Source: a virus
Length of the DNA stretch: 41,328 bases
Virus record (IMG/VR): IMGVR_UViG_3300009094_000009
Location: 1 to 41,328 of that record
Direction: 5' to 3' (one strand)
The position numbers and the translations under genes were made by a program. The notes below the pieces were generated by a model. The model saw only the letters and a program-made list of their open reading frames with translations. It was not told where the DNA came from and made no database searches. Positions 8,311-30,409 of this stretch are shown here, piece by piece (positions within the stretch are counted from its first letter, which is position 1; each line of letters opens with the position of its first letter).

Positions 8311-8403
8311 CGCGCGCTATCATTGTGTCGTCGCATTCACCTTTTGCATGCGACACGCTTTCGTCCTCATGACGACGACGAACGACACGAAAGGCGCACG
8401 ACG

Positions 8404-9552
8404 ATGGGTCACTTGATACAGCAGAAGAACAACTCGCAGAACCTGCTCATGGTCTGGACGGGAACGGACGGCAAGCGCATCACGCGCAGCAGCGGCACGA
8501 GCGATCGCAAGGAAGCGCAGCGACTGCTCGACATCGAAGTCGGCAAGGTCGCACTGGGCGACGTCGTCACGCGTGAGACGACGGGACGTCGCGCGTGTAC
8601 GTTCGACGACGCGGTGCGGCTGTATGACGACGACCTGACGAAGCGCAAGTGCAGCGGGCGCGATGATCTGGTCGGCAAGATCGCGCTGCATCTGCGTCCC
8701 GTGTTCGGGACTCCCGGCACGCGCAAGCTCGCCGACATCACGACGGCGAGGGTCGAGGCATACGACAAAGCGCGACGCGACGCGGGCGCGAAGCGCGAGA
8801 CGATCAATTCAGAGCTTCGCGTGCTGCGTCGACTGTTCATGATTGCGATCGAGCGCAAGCGCTATCGCGGCGACGTGCCCATCATCACGATTCCCGATGC
8901 GAAGAACGCACGGACAGGGTTCTTCGAGCGCGCGCAGTACGACGCGCTGCAGCAGCAGCTGTCGCACTGGCTGCGCGGTCCCGTCACGCTCGCGTACTTC
9001 ACGGGCTGGCGCTTCGCGTCTGAGGTCTGCTCACTGCGCTGGAGTGAAGTCGACCTGACAGCGGGCGTGCTGCGACTCGACAACAGCAAGAACGGCGAGG
9101 GGCGCGTCTTCCCGTTCACGCCGATCGCGGAGCTCGACGACGCGCTGCACGCAGCGGACGTGCAGCGACAGCGTCTGCAGCGCGAGGGCGTCATCGTGTC
9201 GCACGTGTTCCATCGCAACGGCGAGCCGCTGGTGCTGCCGCCACGCGGGAGCTCGCGCACGGGTGAGACGACGAAGTGGGTGCGCAGCGATTGGGCTGAG
9301 TCGTGTAAGCGCGCGGGCGTCGTCGGTCGCATCCCGCACGACATGCGACGCACTGCGGTGCGCGACTTGATGCGCGCGGGCGTGCCGCTCAAGACGGCCA
9401 TGAAGCTCACGGGTCACAAGTCGATGAGCGTCTTCCTGCGTTATCAGATTGTCGATGAGAACGACCTGACAGCAGCGGTCACGCAGTTGGCCGCGCGTCA
9501 CGCGCTGACGCAGCAGCAGCTGCGACGCACGCGCACGAAGCGCGCCGCATAA
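8404..9552 (+). CDS. int: Tyrosine site-specific integrase
   Basis: This protein of 382 residues integrates the phage into, and excises it from, the host chromosome. An N-terminal core-binding domain (about 60-155) precedes the catalytic domain. The catalytic set is visible: Arg203 (FTGWRFASEV), Lys229 (NSKNGEG), His312 and Arg315 (PHDMRRT), His338 (LTGHKS) and the Tyr347 nucleophile (LRYQIV). ATG 8404 is chosen because GAAAGG lies upstream and the protein then starts with a short beta segment typical of such enzymes; the frame stays open to 8323 without support. A strong hairpin follows the gene. The repeat-bearing gap upstream may control it. An attP core was not identified. Confidence 0.95.
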   Translation: MGHLIQQKNNSQNLLMVWTGTDGKRITRSSGTSDRKEAQRLLDIEVGKVALGDVVTRETTGRRACTFDDAVRLYDDDLTKRKCSGRDDLVGKIALHLRPVFGTPGTRKLADITTARVEAYDKARRDAGAKRETINSELRVLRRLFMIAIERKRYRGDVPIITIPDAKNARTGFFERAQYDALQQQLSHWLRGPVTLAYFTGWRFASEVCSLRWSEVDLTAGVLRLDNSKNGEGRVFPFTPIAELDDALHAADVQRQRLQREGVIVSHVFHRNGEPLVLPPRGSSRTGETTKWVRSDWAESCKRAGVVGRIPHDMRRTAVRDLMRAGVPLKTAMKLTGHKSMSVFLRYQIVDENDLTAAVTQLAARHALTQQQLRRTRTKRAA

Positions 9553-14261: not shown

Positions 14262-14597
14262 ATGTCGACGTTGTCGTTGTCGTCGGCGTCGTCAGTGCGG
14301 GCGCGGCTGAACCAGCTGCCGTCACGCATGCAGCGCGCGCTGCTCGCGCAGCTGCGTGCGACCGTGCGCGTCATCACGGGACGCGAGTCGTCTACAGCTT
14401 CCGGCGTCGACGAGCTCGACGCGTTGCTGCAGCAGCTGCCGCGTCGCTGGCGTCGGGCGTACGCGTCGACGGTCGCCGGTATCGTGCGTCTGGTGCCTTC
14501 GCGGTCGTCGCGTCAGCGACGAGCAGCGACGATTCCTCGATCAACGTTGCGAAGCGCAGCTGCAGGACGCGCGGCAGCAGACGCAGATGGTCGATGA
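14262..14597 (+). CDS. Doubtful small basic protein, antisense to repressor end
   Basis: This open frame of 111 residues begins at an ATG with GGGAG upstream. The first 70 residues (RARLNQLPSRMQRALLAQLR, then VDELDALLQQLPRRWRRAY) look like plausible amphipathic helices. The last 40 are arginine/alanine-rich and lie antisense to the repressor's variable C-terminus. If real, the two genes converge and overlap by about 200 bases. No promoter was seen. The composition could also be a shadow effect. The stretch 14061-14261 shows nothing else. Confidence 0.3.
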   Translation: MSTLSLSSASSVRARLNQLPSRMQRALLAQLRATVRVITGRESSTASGVDELDALLQQLPRRWRRAYASTVAGIVRLVPSRSSRQRRAATIPRSTLRSAAAGRAAADADGR

Positions 14598-14913
14598 GTC
14601 GCTGCTCGAAGCGCGTCAACTCATTTTTCAGCGACGGCGGCTGCGTCACGTCGTCGAGCGGCACCGTCACGGTGTAGCCGCGCAGCTGGTCGTAGGGCGT
14701 CACGACATCGTGCATGAGCGTCGCGGGCGTCACGCTGAGCGCCGCCGCGAGCTTGACGATCGTGCGCGGCTCGGGCAGATGCTTGCTACGCTCCCAGAGG
14801 CTGACGGCTGTCGTGCGTGTAAAGCCTAAGCGCTTCGCGAGCACCTGTTGCGTCAGCCCCGCGCTTTCGCGCGCGCGTCGCAGGTTCGCGCCGAACGTCG
14901 TGATGTCAGTCAT
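14392..14913 (-). CDS. Cro/CI-type repressor (XRE helix-turn-helix)
   Basis: This protein of 173 residues is the likely lysogeny repressor. Residues 5-65 form a standard XRE domain: LRRARESAGLTQQVLAKRLG, then TRTTAVSLWERSKHLPEP and IVKLAAALSVTPATLM. The rest is a helical part (about 75-135) and an alanine/arginine-rich tail with no recognisable peptidase dyad, so it would not be a self-cleaving CI. It is transcribed leftward, opposite to the early operon, across a 134-base gap with tandem repeats. ATG 14913 is chosen because the HTH follows directly; the frame is open to 15060, but that extension would cover the promoter region. Confidence 0.85.
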   Translation of the reverse strand: MTDITTFGANLRRARESAGLTQQVLAKRLGFTRTTAVSLWERSKHLPEPRTIVKLAAALSVTPATLMHDVVTPYDQLRGYTVTVPLDDVTQPPSLKNELTRFEQRLIDHLRLLPRVLQLRFATLIEESSLLVADATTAKAPDARYRRPSTRTPDASDAAAAAATRRARRRRKL

Positions 14914-25628: not shown

Positions 25629-25879
25629 GTCACACGCAGACACGCGCGACACGGGAGCTCGACGCACACGCGCGGACTCGACGATGGCGAACGTCACTTC
25701 TGCACAGCAAATCCGACGAGGCCGCGCCGCCACCGTATGGCACTCAAATTTCTAGGGAATCTGACCGCGTCTTACTGCTTGGCCCCTCGATTCAGGCGGT
25801 CGCACGTTGTCGGTTGGGGGTAGACGGGGCGAAACCACCGGGAAACCCCACGAAATCGCCGGTACGCAGGATAACGTAA
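25625..25879 (+). CDS. Doubtful small protein between Ig-like and ParB-like genes
   Basis: This open frame of 84 residues starts at an ATGA overlap with the Ig-like gene, and its TAA shares two bases with the ATG of the ParB-like gene. This exact fit between coupled neighbours speaks for a gene. The sequence, however, shows no hydrophobic core pattern, and the DNA is AT-richer than elsewhere, so the stretch may instead be regulatory, for example a promoter for the modification genes or a packaging site. Confidence 0.3.
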   Translation: MSHTQTRATRELDAHARTRRWRTSLLHSKSDEAAPPPYGTQISRESDRVLLLGPSIQAVARCRLGVDGAKPPGNPTKSPVRRIT

Positions 25880-26451
25880 TGCCCACGCACATACGCGAGC
25901 TCACGAGTGACCCGCAGAACCGACGCACGCACAATCCACGCAACCTCGGCATGCTGAGCGACGCGCTGCGCGCGGTCGGTGCTGCGCGCAGCATCGTCAT
26001 CGACGAGCACGACGTCGTGCTGGCGGGCAACGGCGTCGTTGAAGCGGCAGCCGAAGCGGGCATCGTGCGCGTGCAGACCATCGACGTCGACGGTGAGACG
26101 ATCGTGGCTGTGCGTCGCACGGGACTCAGCGACGAGCAGAAGCGACAACTGGCGATGTATGACAACCGCACGAGTGAGCTCGCCGCGTGGAACGTCGAGC
26201 AGCTGAAGCTCGACACCGCAGCGGGACTCGACCTGCAGCCGTTTTTTACCGATGCCGAGCGCGTCAAGCTGTTCGGCGCTGCACTCGACGCGCCGTCTGC
26301 GTTCCCGGTCGTCGACGCGAACCTGCAGACGACGTATCGCTGCCCGTCGTGCGGCTACGAATGGAGCGGACGCGCGAAGACGCACGCAGCGCCCGAAGAC
26401 GACGACGCAGCGATCGCGAGTGATGACGCGCCGTCTGAGCCGAGCGTATGA
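25879..26451 (+). CDS. ParB/Srx-domain protein with zinc ribbon
   Basis: This protein has 190 residues. Residues 5-115 are a ParB N-terminal-type domain: IRELTSDPQNRRTHNPRNLG, MLSDALRAVGAARSIVIDEH, VVLAGNGVVEAAAEAGI, then ETIVAVRRTGLSDEQKRQLA and YDNRTSELAAW. The usual GERRxRA-type box is GNGVVEAA here, so classical ParB nucleotide chemistry is doubtful. The C-terminus has CPSCGYEWSG, a zinc knuckle. Such proteins are often found next to phage DNA methyltransferases and terminases. The stop overlaps the methyltransferase start. Start 25879 is preferred; an in-frame start at 25807 exists. Confidence 0.75.
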   Translation: MPTHIRELTSDPQNRRTHNPRNLGMLSDALRAVGAARSIVIDEHDVVLAGNGVVEAAAEAGIVRVQTIDVDGETIVAVRRTGLSDEQKRQLAMYDNRTSELAAWNVEQLKLDTAAGLDLQPFFTDAERVKLFGAALDAPSAFPVVDANLQTTYRCPSCGYEWSGRAKTHAAPEDDDAAIASDDAPSEPSV

Positions 26452-27431
26452 CGACGCCCGCGTATGTCGTGCCGACGCTTGCGGAGATACGCGGCTGGCC
26501 GCTCAGCGACTACTGCGTCGCGTCGCTGTTCTCGGGCTGTGGCGGCTCATCGCTCGGCTACCGCATGGCGGGCTTGCGCGTGCTGTATGCGAATGAATTC
26601 GTCGAGGCCGCGCGTGACACGTATCGCGCCAACTTCCCGCTGACGTATCTCGACCCGCGCGACGTGCGCAGCGTGAAGGGCGCCGACGTGCTCGACGTCT
26701 GCGGGCTCGAGGCGGGCGCGCTCGACGTGCTCGATGGCTCGCCGCCCTGCGCGTCGTTCTCCAGCGCGGGCAAGCTCGAACGTCACTGGCGCAGCGCGAA
26801 GAGCTACAGCGACACGCACCAGCGCACCGATGATCTGTTTTTCGAGTACCTGCGGCTCGTCGATGAGATCCGCCCGCGCGTCTGCGTCGCCGAGAACGTG
26901 TCGGGGCTCATCCGGGGCGTCGCCAAGGGACTGTGCAAGCAGATCCTTGCGCGCTTCGCGTCGCTCGACTATCACGTCGAGGCGCGGCTGCTCGACGCGC
27001 AATGGCTCGGCGTGCCGCAGCGTCGCTCACGCGTGATCTTCGTCGCCGTGCGTCGCGATCTGCACGTCGCGCCCGCACTGCCCGCGCCCGCCGCGACGCG
27101 CTTCGTCATTCGCGACGCGCTGCCGCAGCTGCTCGCGCTGCAGGACACCGTGTGGCATGCGCGCTGGATTCCCGCATCACAGCCCGCGCCAGCCATCACG
27201 ACCGCACCGACGCACTGCATCGAGCTCGACAAAGGCTCGACGCGTCGTGCGCTCACCATCCCTGAGCTCAAGCGACTGTGCAGCGTGCCCGATGACTTCG
27301 TGCTGACCGGCACGTATGCGCAGCAATGGGAGCGGCTCGGGCGCGCGGTGCCGCCCGCGATGATGCGCGCGATCGCGACGACGATCCGTGAGCGCGTGCT
27401 CGACGTCGCACGACTGGAGGCGAGCGCATGA
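26448..27431 (+). CDS. C5-cytosine DNA methyltransferase with Arg in motif X
   Basis: This protein of 327 residues has the M.HhaI size and order of motifs: SAM loop SLFSGCGGSSLG (motif I, 26-37), catalytic GSPPCASFS (Cys101), AENVSG (149-153), QRRSRV (191-196), a target-recognition part (about 205-265) and the end IPELKRLCSVPDDF plus QQWERLGRAVPPAMMRAIA. In motif X the usual GN(S/A) is G-Arg299-Ala. The Asn equivalent to M.HhaI Asn304 touches the cofactor, and in M.MpeI changing it to Lys or Arg permits carboxy-SAM. The gene is coupled to the ParB-like gene before and to a CmoA homologue after. It may therefore transfer a carboxymethyl group; ordinary methylation remains possible. Confidence 0.9.
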   Translation: MTTPAYVVPTLAEIRGWPLSDYCVASLFSGCGGSSLGYRMAGLRVLYANEFVEAARDTYRANFPLTYLDPRDVRSVKGADVLDVCGLEAGALDVLDGSPPCASFSSAGKLERHWRSAKSYSDTHQRTDDLFFEYLRLVDEIRPRVCVAENVSGLIRGVAKGLCKQILARFASLDYHVEARLLDAQWLGVPQRRSRVIFVAVRRDLHVAPALPAPAATRFVIRDALPQLLALQDTVWHARWIPASQPAPAITTAPTHCIELDKGSTRRALTIPELKRLCSVPDDFVLTGTYAQQWERLGRAVPPAMMRAIATTIRERVLDVARLEASA

Positions 27432-28156
27432 GTGACGAGACGACTGCTGTCGACCACGTGCAGCAGACGGGACCGTGGCGCTTCACGGCAGACGTGGCGT
27501 CGGTCTTCGATGACATGCTGCGTCGCTCGATCCCGCAGCACGACGACATGCGCGCGCTCGTCTTCGAGCTCGGCTCGCGCTTCGTGCGTCCGCAGACGAC
27601 CGTGCTTGACTTGGGCTGCTCGCGCGGCGAAGCGCTCGATCCGTTCGTGCGACGCTTCGGCGCGCACAATCGCTTCGTCGGTGTCGACGTCAGCGGACCG
27701 ATGCTCGACGCCGCGCGCGCACGCTTCGAGGGCTACATGCGCACGAACGTCGTCGCGATTGCCGAGTGCGATCTGCGGCACGACTATCCACGCGAGCACG
27801 CGTCGCTGACGCTCGCCGTGCTGACGCTGCAATTCGTGCCGCTCGAATATCGGGCGACGCTCGTGCGGCGCATGTATGAGCAGACGCTGCCGGGGGGCGC
27901 GTGCATCGTCGTCGAGAAGGTGCTGGGCGACTCGCCGCGCATCGACACGCTGCTCGTCGATGAGTATCTCAGCCTGAAGCGCGCGCACGGCTACAGCGCC
28001 GACGAGATTGCGCGCAAGCGACTCGCGCTCGAAGGCGTGCTCGTGCCGCTCACGGCGCACTGGAACGTCGAGCAGCTGCGACACGCGGGCTTCGCGGACG
28101 TCGACTGCTTCTGGCGCTGGCTCAATTTCGCCGGCTGGCTGGCGGTGCGCGCATGA
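27428..28156 (+). CDS. cmoA: CmoA-like carboxy-SAM synthase
   Basis: This protein of 242 residues matches CmoA in length and along its whole span: VFDDMLRRSIPQHDDM (26-41), the SAM loop VLDLGCSRGEAL (59-70), GVDVSGPMLDAA, CDLRHDYP, LTLQFVPLEYR (132-142), MYEQTLPGGACIVVEK (149-164), GYSADEIARKRLALEGVLVP (188-207) and FWRWLNFAGWLAVR at the end. The Arg of KR (198) probably corresponds to E. coli CmoA Arg199, which holds the carboxylate. CmoA converts SAM and prephenate to carboxy-SAM. In bacteria it serves the tRNA enzyme CmoB, which is absent here. Translational coupling to a DNA methyltransferase suggests that DNA is the acceptor. A plain SAM methyltransferase is the alternative. Confidence 0.8.
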   Translation: MSDETTAVDHVQQTGPWRFTADVASVFDDMLRRSIPQHDDMRALVFELGSRFVRPQTTVLDLGCSRGEALDPFVRRFGAHNRFVGVDVSGPMLDAARARFEGYMRTNVVAIAECDLRHDYPREHASLTLAVLTLQFVPLEYRATLVRRMYEQTLPGGACIVVEKVLGDSPRIDTLLVDEYLSLKRAHGYSADEIARKRLALEGVLVPLTAHWNVEQLRHAGFADVDCFWRWLNFAGWLAVRA

Positions 28157-28701
28157 AAAGTGGACCCGCTCCGAAACCGACGCGCCTGCGACAACTGCAG
28201 GGCAACCCGTCGCGCCGACCCATGAACCTCGACGAGCCGCAGCTGCCCGCCGCCGACGCGCGCTTCGACGTCGTGCCCATCGTGCTTCGAGACGACGCCG
28301 TCGCGAGCAGCGAGTGGCGACGTCTCGCGCCGCTGCTGCGTGTCGCGCGCATCGTCACCGAAGCCGATCGCGCGTCGCTCATCGCCGCGTGTCAGCAGTG
28401 GAGTATCTATCAGCACGCGCTGACGCAGGCGCCGCCCGAGCGTCGCGTGCTGCGCACGCCTAACGACTACCCGATGGTGAACCCCTATATCGCCATCGCC
28501 AATAAGGCGCTGCTGCACTGCGAGCGACTGTGGGATGCGTTGGGCCTGACGCCCGCGGCGCGCTCGCGTGTCGCGATGGCGGGCGCGGCGAGCGATAACG
28601 ATCCGTTCGCGGAATTCGACGAGCCGCGTGCGCGTCTCGCGCATGGGCCGTCGCTCGACGGGCGCATGCGCGTCGACGACGAGGATGGCTCCGTCAACTG
28701 A
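28153..28701 (+). CDS. terS: Terminase small subunit, P27 family
   Basis: This protein of 182 residues begins with the P27-family signature GPAPKPTRLRQLQGNPSRRP, followed by the helical core (EWRRLAPLLRVARIVTEADR, SLIAACQQWSIYQHAL) and PYIAIANKALLHCERLWDAL, GLTPAARSRV. It recognises phage DNA and brings it to the large subunit. It starts inside the stop of the CmoA-like gene and ends 17 bases inside the large subunit gene. The size is normal for the family. Confidence 0.92.
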   Translation: MKSGPAPKPTRLRQLQGNPSRRPMNLDEPQLPAADARFDVVPIVLRDDAVASSEWRRLAPLLRVARIVTEADRASLIAACQQWSIYQHALTQAPPERRVLRTPNDYPMVNPYIAIANKALLHCERLWDALGLTPAARSRVAMAGAASDNDPFAEFDEPRARLAHGPSLDGRMRVDDEDGSVN

Positions 28702-30409
28702 GCACGTCGTCGACGTCTACGCGCGACGCGTCGTCGCGGGCGACGTGCCGGCGGGCACCTATCATCGACTCGCGTGCGCGCGCCATCTGCGCGATCGTGA
28801 GCGCGAGCGCGACGACGACAGCTGGCCGTTCTACTTCGACGCGCTCGAAGCGGATCGCTTCTATCGCTTCGCGAGCTCACTGCGACACTACAAGGGCGAG
28901 CAATTCGCAGGACGACGCATCGAACTCGTCGACGTGCAGCGCTTTCGGCTCGGCTCGATCTTCGGCTGGTATCACCGCGAGACGAACCTGCCGCGCTACA
29001 CGACGGCGTATAACGAGCTCCCGCGCAAGTCGGGCAAGACGCTCGAAGCGGCGATCGTCGCGCTGTATCAGGTGTTCTTCCGGGGCGAGCCCGGAGCCGA
29101 GGGCTACGTCGTCGCGACGAAGCGTCAGCAGGCCAAGCTCTGTTTCGACGCGGCGCGCAAGCTGGTGCGCTCATCGGGGCTGCGCGATCGCATCCGCGTG
29201 CTGACGCACAACCTGCACCGCGACACGCTCGACGCCAAGCTCGAACCGTTGGGCGCGGACGCGGACTCGACGGACGGGCTCAACCCGTTCTGCATCATCA
29301 CCGACGAATTCCACGCGCACAAGACACGCGACCTCGTCGATGTCATGGAAAGCGCGACGGGCGCACGTCTCAGCTTTCTGCATTTCATCATCACGACCGC
29401 AGGCGACGAGCTCACGAGTCCGTGCGGCGAGATGCACACCTACTGCTGCAACATCCTCGACGAGACGCTGCCCAGCGACGCGGCGACCGAAAGCACCTTC
29501 GCGCTCATCGCGCACGCAGACCCGACCGACGACTGGCAAGACGAGCGCACGTGGGTCAAGGCCAATCCGATGTGGGACGTGAGCGTGAACCCGGACGACA
29601 TGCGCAAGGCGGCGCTGGCGGCGCGACACAATCCCGGCCGCGCGAATGAATTCAAGCAGAAGCGACTGAACCTCTGGATCGCCGCGCGCGATCCGTGGCT
29701 CAGCGTCGAGGGCTGGCGCAGCGGACAGCACGTCTGGGACGTCGACGAGCTCGTCGGCGAGTCGTGCTTCGTCGGCATCGACCTCGCGAGCAAGCTCGAT
29801 CTATGCGCGATGGTCTTCGTCTTTCCGCCGACCGACACGCGCGCCGCGTATCGACTGTTGCGCTGGGTGTGGACGCCCGAAGACACGCTGCGCGATCGCG
29901 CGCATCGCGACCACGCGCCGTATGAGCTCTGGACGCAGCAGCGCGGCTTCGACCGTGAGCCCGTCCTGCGCACGTCGCCGGGAACGCAAGTCAATCATCA
30001 GGTGCTGCGCGACGTGCTGCGCGAGCAGCGCGCGCGCTATCGCGTCGAGCGGATCGGCTTCGACCCGTGGCATGCCGACACGCTCATCGACCAACTCATC
30101 GAAGAGGACGGCTTCGAGCGCGACGACGTCGTCGAAGTCAGTCAGACGTACGCGGGCATGTCGAGCGGGGCGGCGGCGTATGAAGCAGCGGTACTGGCGG
30201 GACTCGTCGACGCGGGCGGCTGTCCGCTGATGACATGGACGCACGCGAACGCGGTGGTGCAGCGCGACCCACGTGGCAACGCGTTCCCGATTAAGAAAAA
30301 GTCGCGCGGACGCATCGACCCCGTGATGGCGGCGGTCATCGGGGTCAACCTCGTGCTGCGTGCGCGTCCAGAGTCACCGGCCGAAGATCCGGTGCTCATC
30401 GTCGCATGA
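28685..30409 (+). CDS. terL: Terminase large subunit
   Basis: This protein of 574 residues is the packaging motor and nuclease. Walker A is PRKSGKT (113-119); Walker B with the catalytic Glu is CIITDE (203-208). The coupling region FIITTAGDE lies near 232. The RNase H-like nuclease starts with CFVGIDLASKLDL (Asp near 364), and the last acidic site is GRIDPVMAAVIGVN near 540. The pattern is of the HK97/Terminase_1 type, normally coupled with P27 small subunits and cos packaging. ATG 28685 is chosen because the frame upstream of it lies within the small subunit and is arginine-rich shadow. Confidence 0.95.
   Translation: MAPSTEHVVDVYARRVVAGDVPAGTYHRLACARHLRDRERERDDDSWPFYFDALEADRFYRFASSLRHYKGEQFAGRRIELVDVQRFRLGSIFGWYHRETNLPRYTTAYNELPRKSGKTLEAAIVALYQVFFRGEPGAEGYVVATKRQQAKLCFDAARKLVRSSGLRDRIRVLTHNLHRDTLDAKLEPLGADADSTDGLNPFCIITDEFHAHKTRDLVDVMESATGARLSFLHFIITTAGDELTSPCGEMHTYCCNILDETLPSDAATESTFALIAHADPTDDWQDERTWVKANPMWDVSVNPDDMRKAALAARHNPGRANEFKQKRLNLWIAARDPWLSVEGWRSGQHVWDVDELVGESCFVGIDLASKLDLCAMVFVFPPTDTRAAYRLLRWVWTPEDTLRDRAHRDHAPYELWTQQRGFDREPVLRTSPGTQVNHQVLRDVLREQRARYRVERIGFDPWHADTLIDQLIEEDGFERDDVVEVSQTYAGMSSGAAAYEAAVLAGLVDAGGCPLMTWTHANAVVQRDPRGNAFPIKKKSRGRIDPVMAAVIGVNLVLRARPESPAEDPVLIVA

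Follow-up and report, generated by a model that had tools for sequence, protein, structure and literature searches.

The window, i.e., the whole stretch of viral DNA analysed here (41,328 nt, 66% GC), carries a ParB-like gene, cmoX and cmoA directly in front of the terminase genes, all on the plus strand. The ParB-like gene (25879..26451) encodes 190 aa from an ATG, or 214 aa if translation starts further upstream at the TTG of 25807; its product matches phrog_620 (4.6e-18) and has no Pfam match. It overlaps by 4 nt with cmoX (26448..27431; 327 aa, ATG; PF00145 DNA_methylase, 7e-49), a predicted DNA cytosine C5-carboxymethyltransferase, which is followed by cmoA (27428..28156; 242 aa, ATG; TIGR00740, 8.6e-50; phrog_4752, 2e-72), a predicted carboxy-SAM synthase. 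The small terminase subunit (28153..28701; PF05119, 2.2e-19; phrog_83, 3.5e-32) and the large one (28643..30409; PF20441, 1.9e-34; PF03354, 5e-29; phrog_9, 5.8e-142) complete the run. Most CmoX relatives also have a ParB-like gene beside them. The C-terminal end of the window ParB-like protein is formed by a CPxCGYEW motif, a possible zinc-binding half site, and counterparts occur in the ParB-like proteins of the Streptomyces phage TurkishDelight and Pseudomonas phage PaBG cassettes (CPRCEYTW, CPKCKFQF).

An identical 123-nt repeat is found at both ends of the record, which thus represents a genome of ~41.2 kb that is complete or closes into a circle. Genes for portal, protease and major head protein accompany those for terminase, and no tRNA genes were found in the genome. 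A tyrosine integrase (8323-9552) together with a Cro/CI-type HTH protein encoded on the minus strand (14392-14913) suggests that the phage is probably temperate. Judged by CmoX, its nearest cultured relative is TurkishDelight with 55% identity, which gives no pointer to the host.

In a preliminary description of this DNA, a C5-cytosine DNA methyltransferase gene was reported in a 4-nt overlap with a CmoA-like gene immediately before the terminase genes, and the coordinates confirm this arrangement. The overlap (ATGA) was also read as a sign of coupling. Here, only part of the argument stands: cmoA overlaps the small terminase gene by another 4 nt, and exactly this overlap occurs in 24 out of 59 same-strand neighbour pairs of the window, so that it was rejected as evidence of coupling. 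The evidence for coupling of cmoX and cmoA is their conserved co-occurrence in relatives. A CmoB-like gene had been noted as missing, in good agreement with our search, in which TIGR00452 has no match anywhere in the record.

Likeness to the system of cyanophage S-B43

CmoA was described earlier as serving CmoB on tRNA and nothing else. This is outdated since the work of Yang et al. (Nat Commun, 7 Dec 2025; PMC12783734), who established the chemistry of CmoA and CmoX from Synechococcus phage S-B43 biochemically and crystallographically. In S-B43, CmoA makes carboxy-SAM (Cx-SAM), CmoX, a C5-methyltransferase homologue (SpCmoX), makes 5-carboxymethylcytosine (5cxmC) at GC, and CmoY, an Asn-synthase-like ligase, adds glycine to give the glycine amide 5gcxmC, which is found in virion DNA to the exclusion of 5cxmC (PMC12783734). 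In the Cx-SAM-bound crystal structure (8yf3), Arg350 occupies the position of HhaI Asn304 and contacts the carboxylate; the wild-type enzyme accepts Cx-SAM alone and not SAM, while the R350N variant accepts neither (PMC12783734). Modification by SpCmoX blocks HhaI restriction in vitro, and the enzyme can use host CmoA in E. coli (PMC12783734). The arginine mirrors the engineered carboxymethyltransferase M.MpeI N374K, in which a basic cofactor-pocket residue confers Cx-SAM use (cited in PMC12783734). The same study counted 5,615 CmoX candidates, 4,257 CmoA, 2,251 ligases and 1,660 ParBc genes on such contigs (PMC12783734). The idea that carboxy-SAM feeds the DNA enzyme is very likely right as a mechanism, but it is no longer new: it is already published from another phage, and the window adds a further instance that is unusual mainly in having no ligase.

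The window enzyme closely resembles SpCmoX. Among PDB sequences, 8yf3 is its best match (6.1e-64), with HaeIII second (1.2e-23), and the AlphaFold model (pLDDT 90.6) again finds 8yf3 as the best fold match (2.4e-29). The SPPC, ENV and QxRxR motifs are shared with the S-B43 enzyme and provide the catalytic residues C101 (nucleophile), E149 and R193/R195, all invariant in our alignment. Motif X reads GRAVPP, and its R299 aligns with SpCmoX R350 and HhaI N304. With this arginine the window enzyme has a basic cofactor-pocket residue, as does M.MpeI N374K, but the latter is a laboratory variant with CG preference, whereas the window enzyme is a natural one.

Several differences from S-B43 (MN018232) are evident. 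In both phages, CmoA is adjacent to CmoX and CmoB is missing, but in the window cmoX precedes cmoA, a ParB-like gene lies upstream and CmoY is lacking; the cassette is part of the packaging operon, and its phage is an integrase-bearing one of 41 kb, whereas S-B43 is a cyanophage of 214 kb. Furthermore, the stretch between motifs VIII and X comprises 103 residues, the shortest of 129 enzymes compared, versus 147 in SpCmoX, and DNA specificity can therefore not be inferred from the latter. Counts of restriction sites in the window show depletion of the CG-centred CTCGAG, TTCGAA and CCCGGG and over-representation of the GC-centred GAGCTC and CAGCTG. We discarded site avoidance as evidence, since the depletion extends to CCGCGG, and such counts are confounded by codon usage in a genome of 66% GC.

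The preliminary description of the neighbouring protein as CmoA-like along its full span of 242 residues is borne out by TIGR00740, where residues 10-240 align with positions 8-238 of 239. The score of 169.6 bits lies under the curated equivalog cut-off of 193.3. As a control, SpCmoA, whose activity is biochemically proven, reaches 115.6 bits and thus less than the window protein, so that the sub-cut-off score does not argue against function. PDB sequence matches are 1im8, 4gek and 4iwn, and the structure model matches 1im8 and 4gek in fold. The full-length fold is shared with bacterial CmoA (E. coli, 4gek/4iwn), and so is Arg199, which forms the salt bridge to the Cx-SAM carboxylate in the E. 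coli enzyme (PMC3663124) and is kept as R198 (KRLALEGV). SpCmoA has Glu at this position, and Arg is thus no absolute criterion. In the remaining cofactor pocket, D62, G64, S66, A70, D89, D117 and F137 are kept, while Y39H, I118L, N90V and N132V are changed; the departures from E. coli at Tyr39, Asn90 and Asn132 weigh against the proposed function. Bacterial CmoA partners CmoB, whereas the window protein has a DNA C5 enzyme as partner and scores below the TIGR00740 cut-off.

Among cultured phages, TurkishDelight (L002) and PaBG (L004) share with the window the order ParB, CmoX (with Arg) and CmoA, at CmoX identities of 55% and 39%, respectively; both have a gene for an Asn-synthase-type ligase, which the window lacks. 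Moraxella phage Mcat8 (L003) is, like the window phage, small and has a ParB-like match, CmoX (with Arg), a CmoA-like gene and then terminase, with no CmoY match. Its CmoA-like gene, unlike that of the window, belongs to a divergent low-scoring class (76 bits).

Motif-X arginine and CmoA across 129 loci

If the arginine stands for Cx-SAM use, it is expected to travel with CmoA. We sampled loci from IMG/VR (80), GTDB genomes (46) and several cultured phages, of which 129 were usable; from each, CmoX was extracted, the motif-X residue was read, and a CmoA-like gene was sought within 7 kb. Such a gene is present next to 111 of 115 Arg enzymes and next to none of the 14 enzymes with Asn or Leu (Fisher 1.6e-15, for loci that are not independent).

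Because of this dependence, a CmoX tree was computed without the motif-X columns. It contains four switches of the arginine, and CmoA presence is concordant in all of them (sign test p 0.125, which cannot reach significance with n=4). The position of the window enzyme is uncertain in detail, as tree building flagged long branches meeting. Thus, one active-site residue covaries with a neighbouring gene, which provides independent support for the view that phage CmoA/CmoX cassettes are widespread and modify DNA by way of carboxy-SAM. Their range extends to small phages and to named bacterial genomes.

Four Arg loci have no CmoA. One is a contig end (L021) that stops just past cmoX; its twin L020, with an identical CmoX, has CmoA. 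The other three (L054, L056 and L057) form one clade, and CmoA is found nowhere in the clade's 43-kb record. Their CmoX might draw on host CmoA, by analogy with SpCmoX in E. coli.

Most of the CmoA-like neighbours (78 of 111) fall into the divergent class of about 65-140 bits, while the window CmoA belongs to the canonical class (359 bits). In the divergent proteins (e.g., L023, L042, L076) a conserved KELSL replaces the Arg199 region and the C-terminus is shorter; their Cx-SAM activity is putative. Two further C5-methyltransferase relatives, from cultured Rhodobacteraceae and Flavobacterium phages (L135, L136), have no annotated CmoA neighbour; here the motif-X residue is Met (GMSVPP). Several ParB-CmoX-CmoA-like cassettes were observed in single Verrucomicrobiota assemblies (e.g., JAOSKK01 and JAKQDD01; L096-L115 and L126, mostly Verrucomicrobiota), perhaps representing several prophages or other elements.

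Proposed chemistry and the final base

Taken together, sequence and analogy point to the window pair as a CmoA-CmoX DNA carboxymethylation system, to which we assign a probability of roughly 0.88. CmoA would convert SAM and host prephenate to Cx-SAM. CmoX would then flip out a cytosine, Cys101 would attack C6, and the carboxymethyl group of Cx-SAM would be moved to C5, with Arg299 holding the carboxylate such that plain SAM is excluded. The product would be 5-carboxymethylcytosine in DNA about to be packaged, and this base would be expected to block restriction enzymes.

An ordinary 5-methylcytosine methyltransferase that adjoins a CmoA homologue by chance would equally show every catalytic C5-methyltransferase motif and a fold of the HhaI/HaeIII type, as is the case here. 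However, Arg stands in place of the motif-X Asn, CmoA follows this Arg closely in the relatives, and wild-type SpCmoX refuses SAM (PMC12783734); we regard this reading as very improbable. More improbable still is that CmoA works for the host tRNA pathway (cmo5U via host CmoB), e.g., by aiding translation late in infection. This is the classical role of bacterial CmoA, and PHROGs labels the family as a tRNA methyltransferase, but the phage has neither a tRNA gene nor CmoB, CmoA presence follows the CmoX arginine, and cmoA sits in the packaging operon. Decay of the cassette, which the unusually short variable region of CmoX could indicate, seems the least probable: both frames are intact with the invariant residues kept, and a relative with ~96% DNA identity to the window (contig L007, 3300015371) retains both genes at 98-100% protein identity.

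A variant that shares its first steps with the carboxymethylation system concerns the final base. There, 5cxmC would be an intermediate to which a phage or host enzyme that escaped recognition ligates an amine, such that an amide would be present in virion DNA. S-B43 does just this, with 5gcxmC and not 5cxmC in its virions (PMC12783734), and several large window genes without assigned function could hide the downstream enzyme. On the other hand, the complete record contains no Asn_synthase domain (PF00733, the CmoY-type ligase), a CmoY profile search of it gave no match, and no ligase-like Pfam family was matched among the larger genes scanned (Pfam/PHROGs). The cassettes of relatives have no further conserved gene besides those for packaging. 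Among Arg+CmoA relatives with records of at least 30 kb, PF00733 is present in 7 out of 13 and absent in 6; the ligase-free form is therefore common, although most ligase-free records may be incomplete. We consider the amide variant rather unlikely, yet a good deal more serious than the readings above.

Provided that CmoX is active, 5cxmC is probably the final base in the window phage, because a complete genome is at hand that has no recognisable CmoY amide ligase; as window genes without assigned function remain, we hold this expectation only somewhat above even, and at about even once the uncertainty in CmoX activity is counted in. A broader proposal, for which we see the chances as balanced, is that the window phage and a branch of relatives lacking the ligase keep the anionic 5cxmC as the final base of packaged DNA, with a shortened CmoX target-recognition region that possibly reads another or shorter target than GC. 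If true, this would be the first natural DNA ending in 5cxmC itself and not in its glycine amide. A complete genome without CmoY also makes it testable whether 5cxmC alone protects.

CmoA beside phrog_5475 and in other contexts

No N6-adenine or N4-cytosine partner of CmoA was found in the 2025 study (PMC12783734). We observe CmoA close to phrog_5475 in Aeromonas phage HJ05 (L137, 1-7420), Pseudomonas phage SM1 (L140; 12 such Pseudomonas records) and Gordonia phage Evaa (L141), and there is no C5-methyltransferase (PF00145) anywhere in HJ05, SM1 or Evaa. Members of phrog_5475 are ~520 aa long. Their N-terminus is of the ParB type, and the SAM-methyltransferase-like domain at the C-terminus carries a SAM-binding-like motif (DFGAG) and an invariant N-S-x-P-F (NSxPF). 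An IMG/VR scan at over 150 bits gave 52 loci including these three phages (further loci L142-L190), and 50 of them have a CmoA-like gene, mostly directly downstream. CmoA and the non-C5 methyltransferase-like phrog_5475 are thus a candidate for a second class of Cx-SAM-dependent phage modification. The pairing suggests another use of Cx-SAM, in a modification of a second kind that is missing from the 2025 paper and possibly more novel than the window pair.

The same gene run as CmoA in HJ05 includes a DAHP synthase (PF00793, 1.2e-49; L137:6257-7420). DAHP synthase opens the pathway that leads to prephenate, the co-substrate of CmoA, and the phage copy would raise the flux to it. A different context is found in Alcaligenes phage Afa-NA1 (L005/L139), a complete genome of 78 kb without a C5-methyltransferase, whose CmoA is 42% identical to that of the window. 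Downstream of this CmoA lie genes for NUDIX, MmcB-like, dTMP kinase and D12-class N6-adenine methyltransferase proteins, with an annotated thymidylate synthase beyond.
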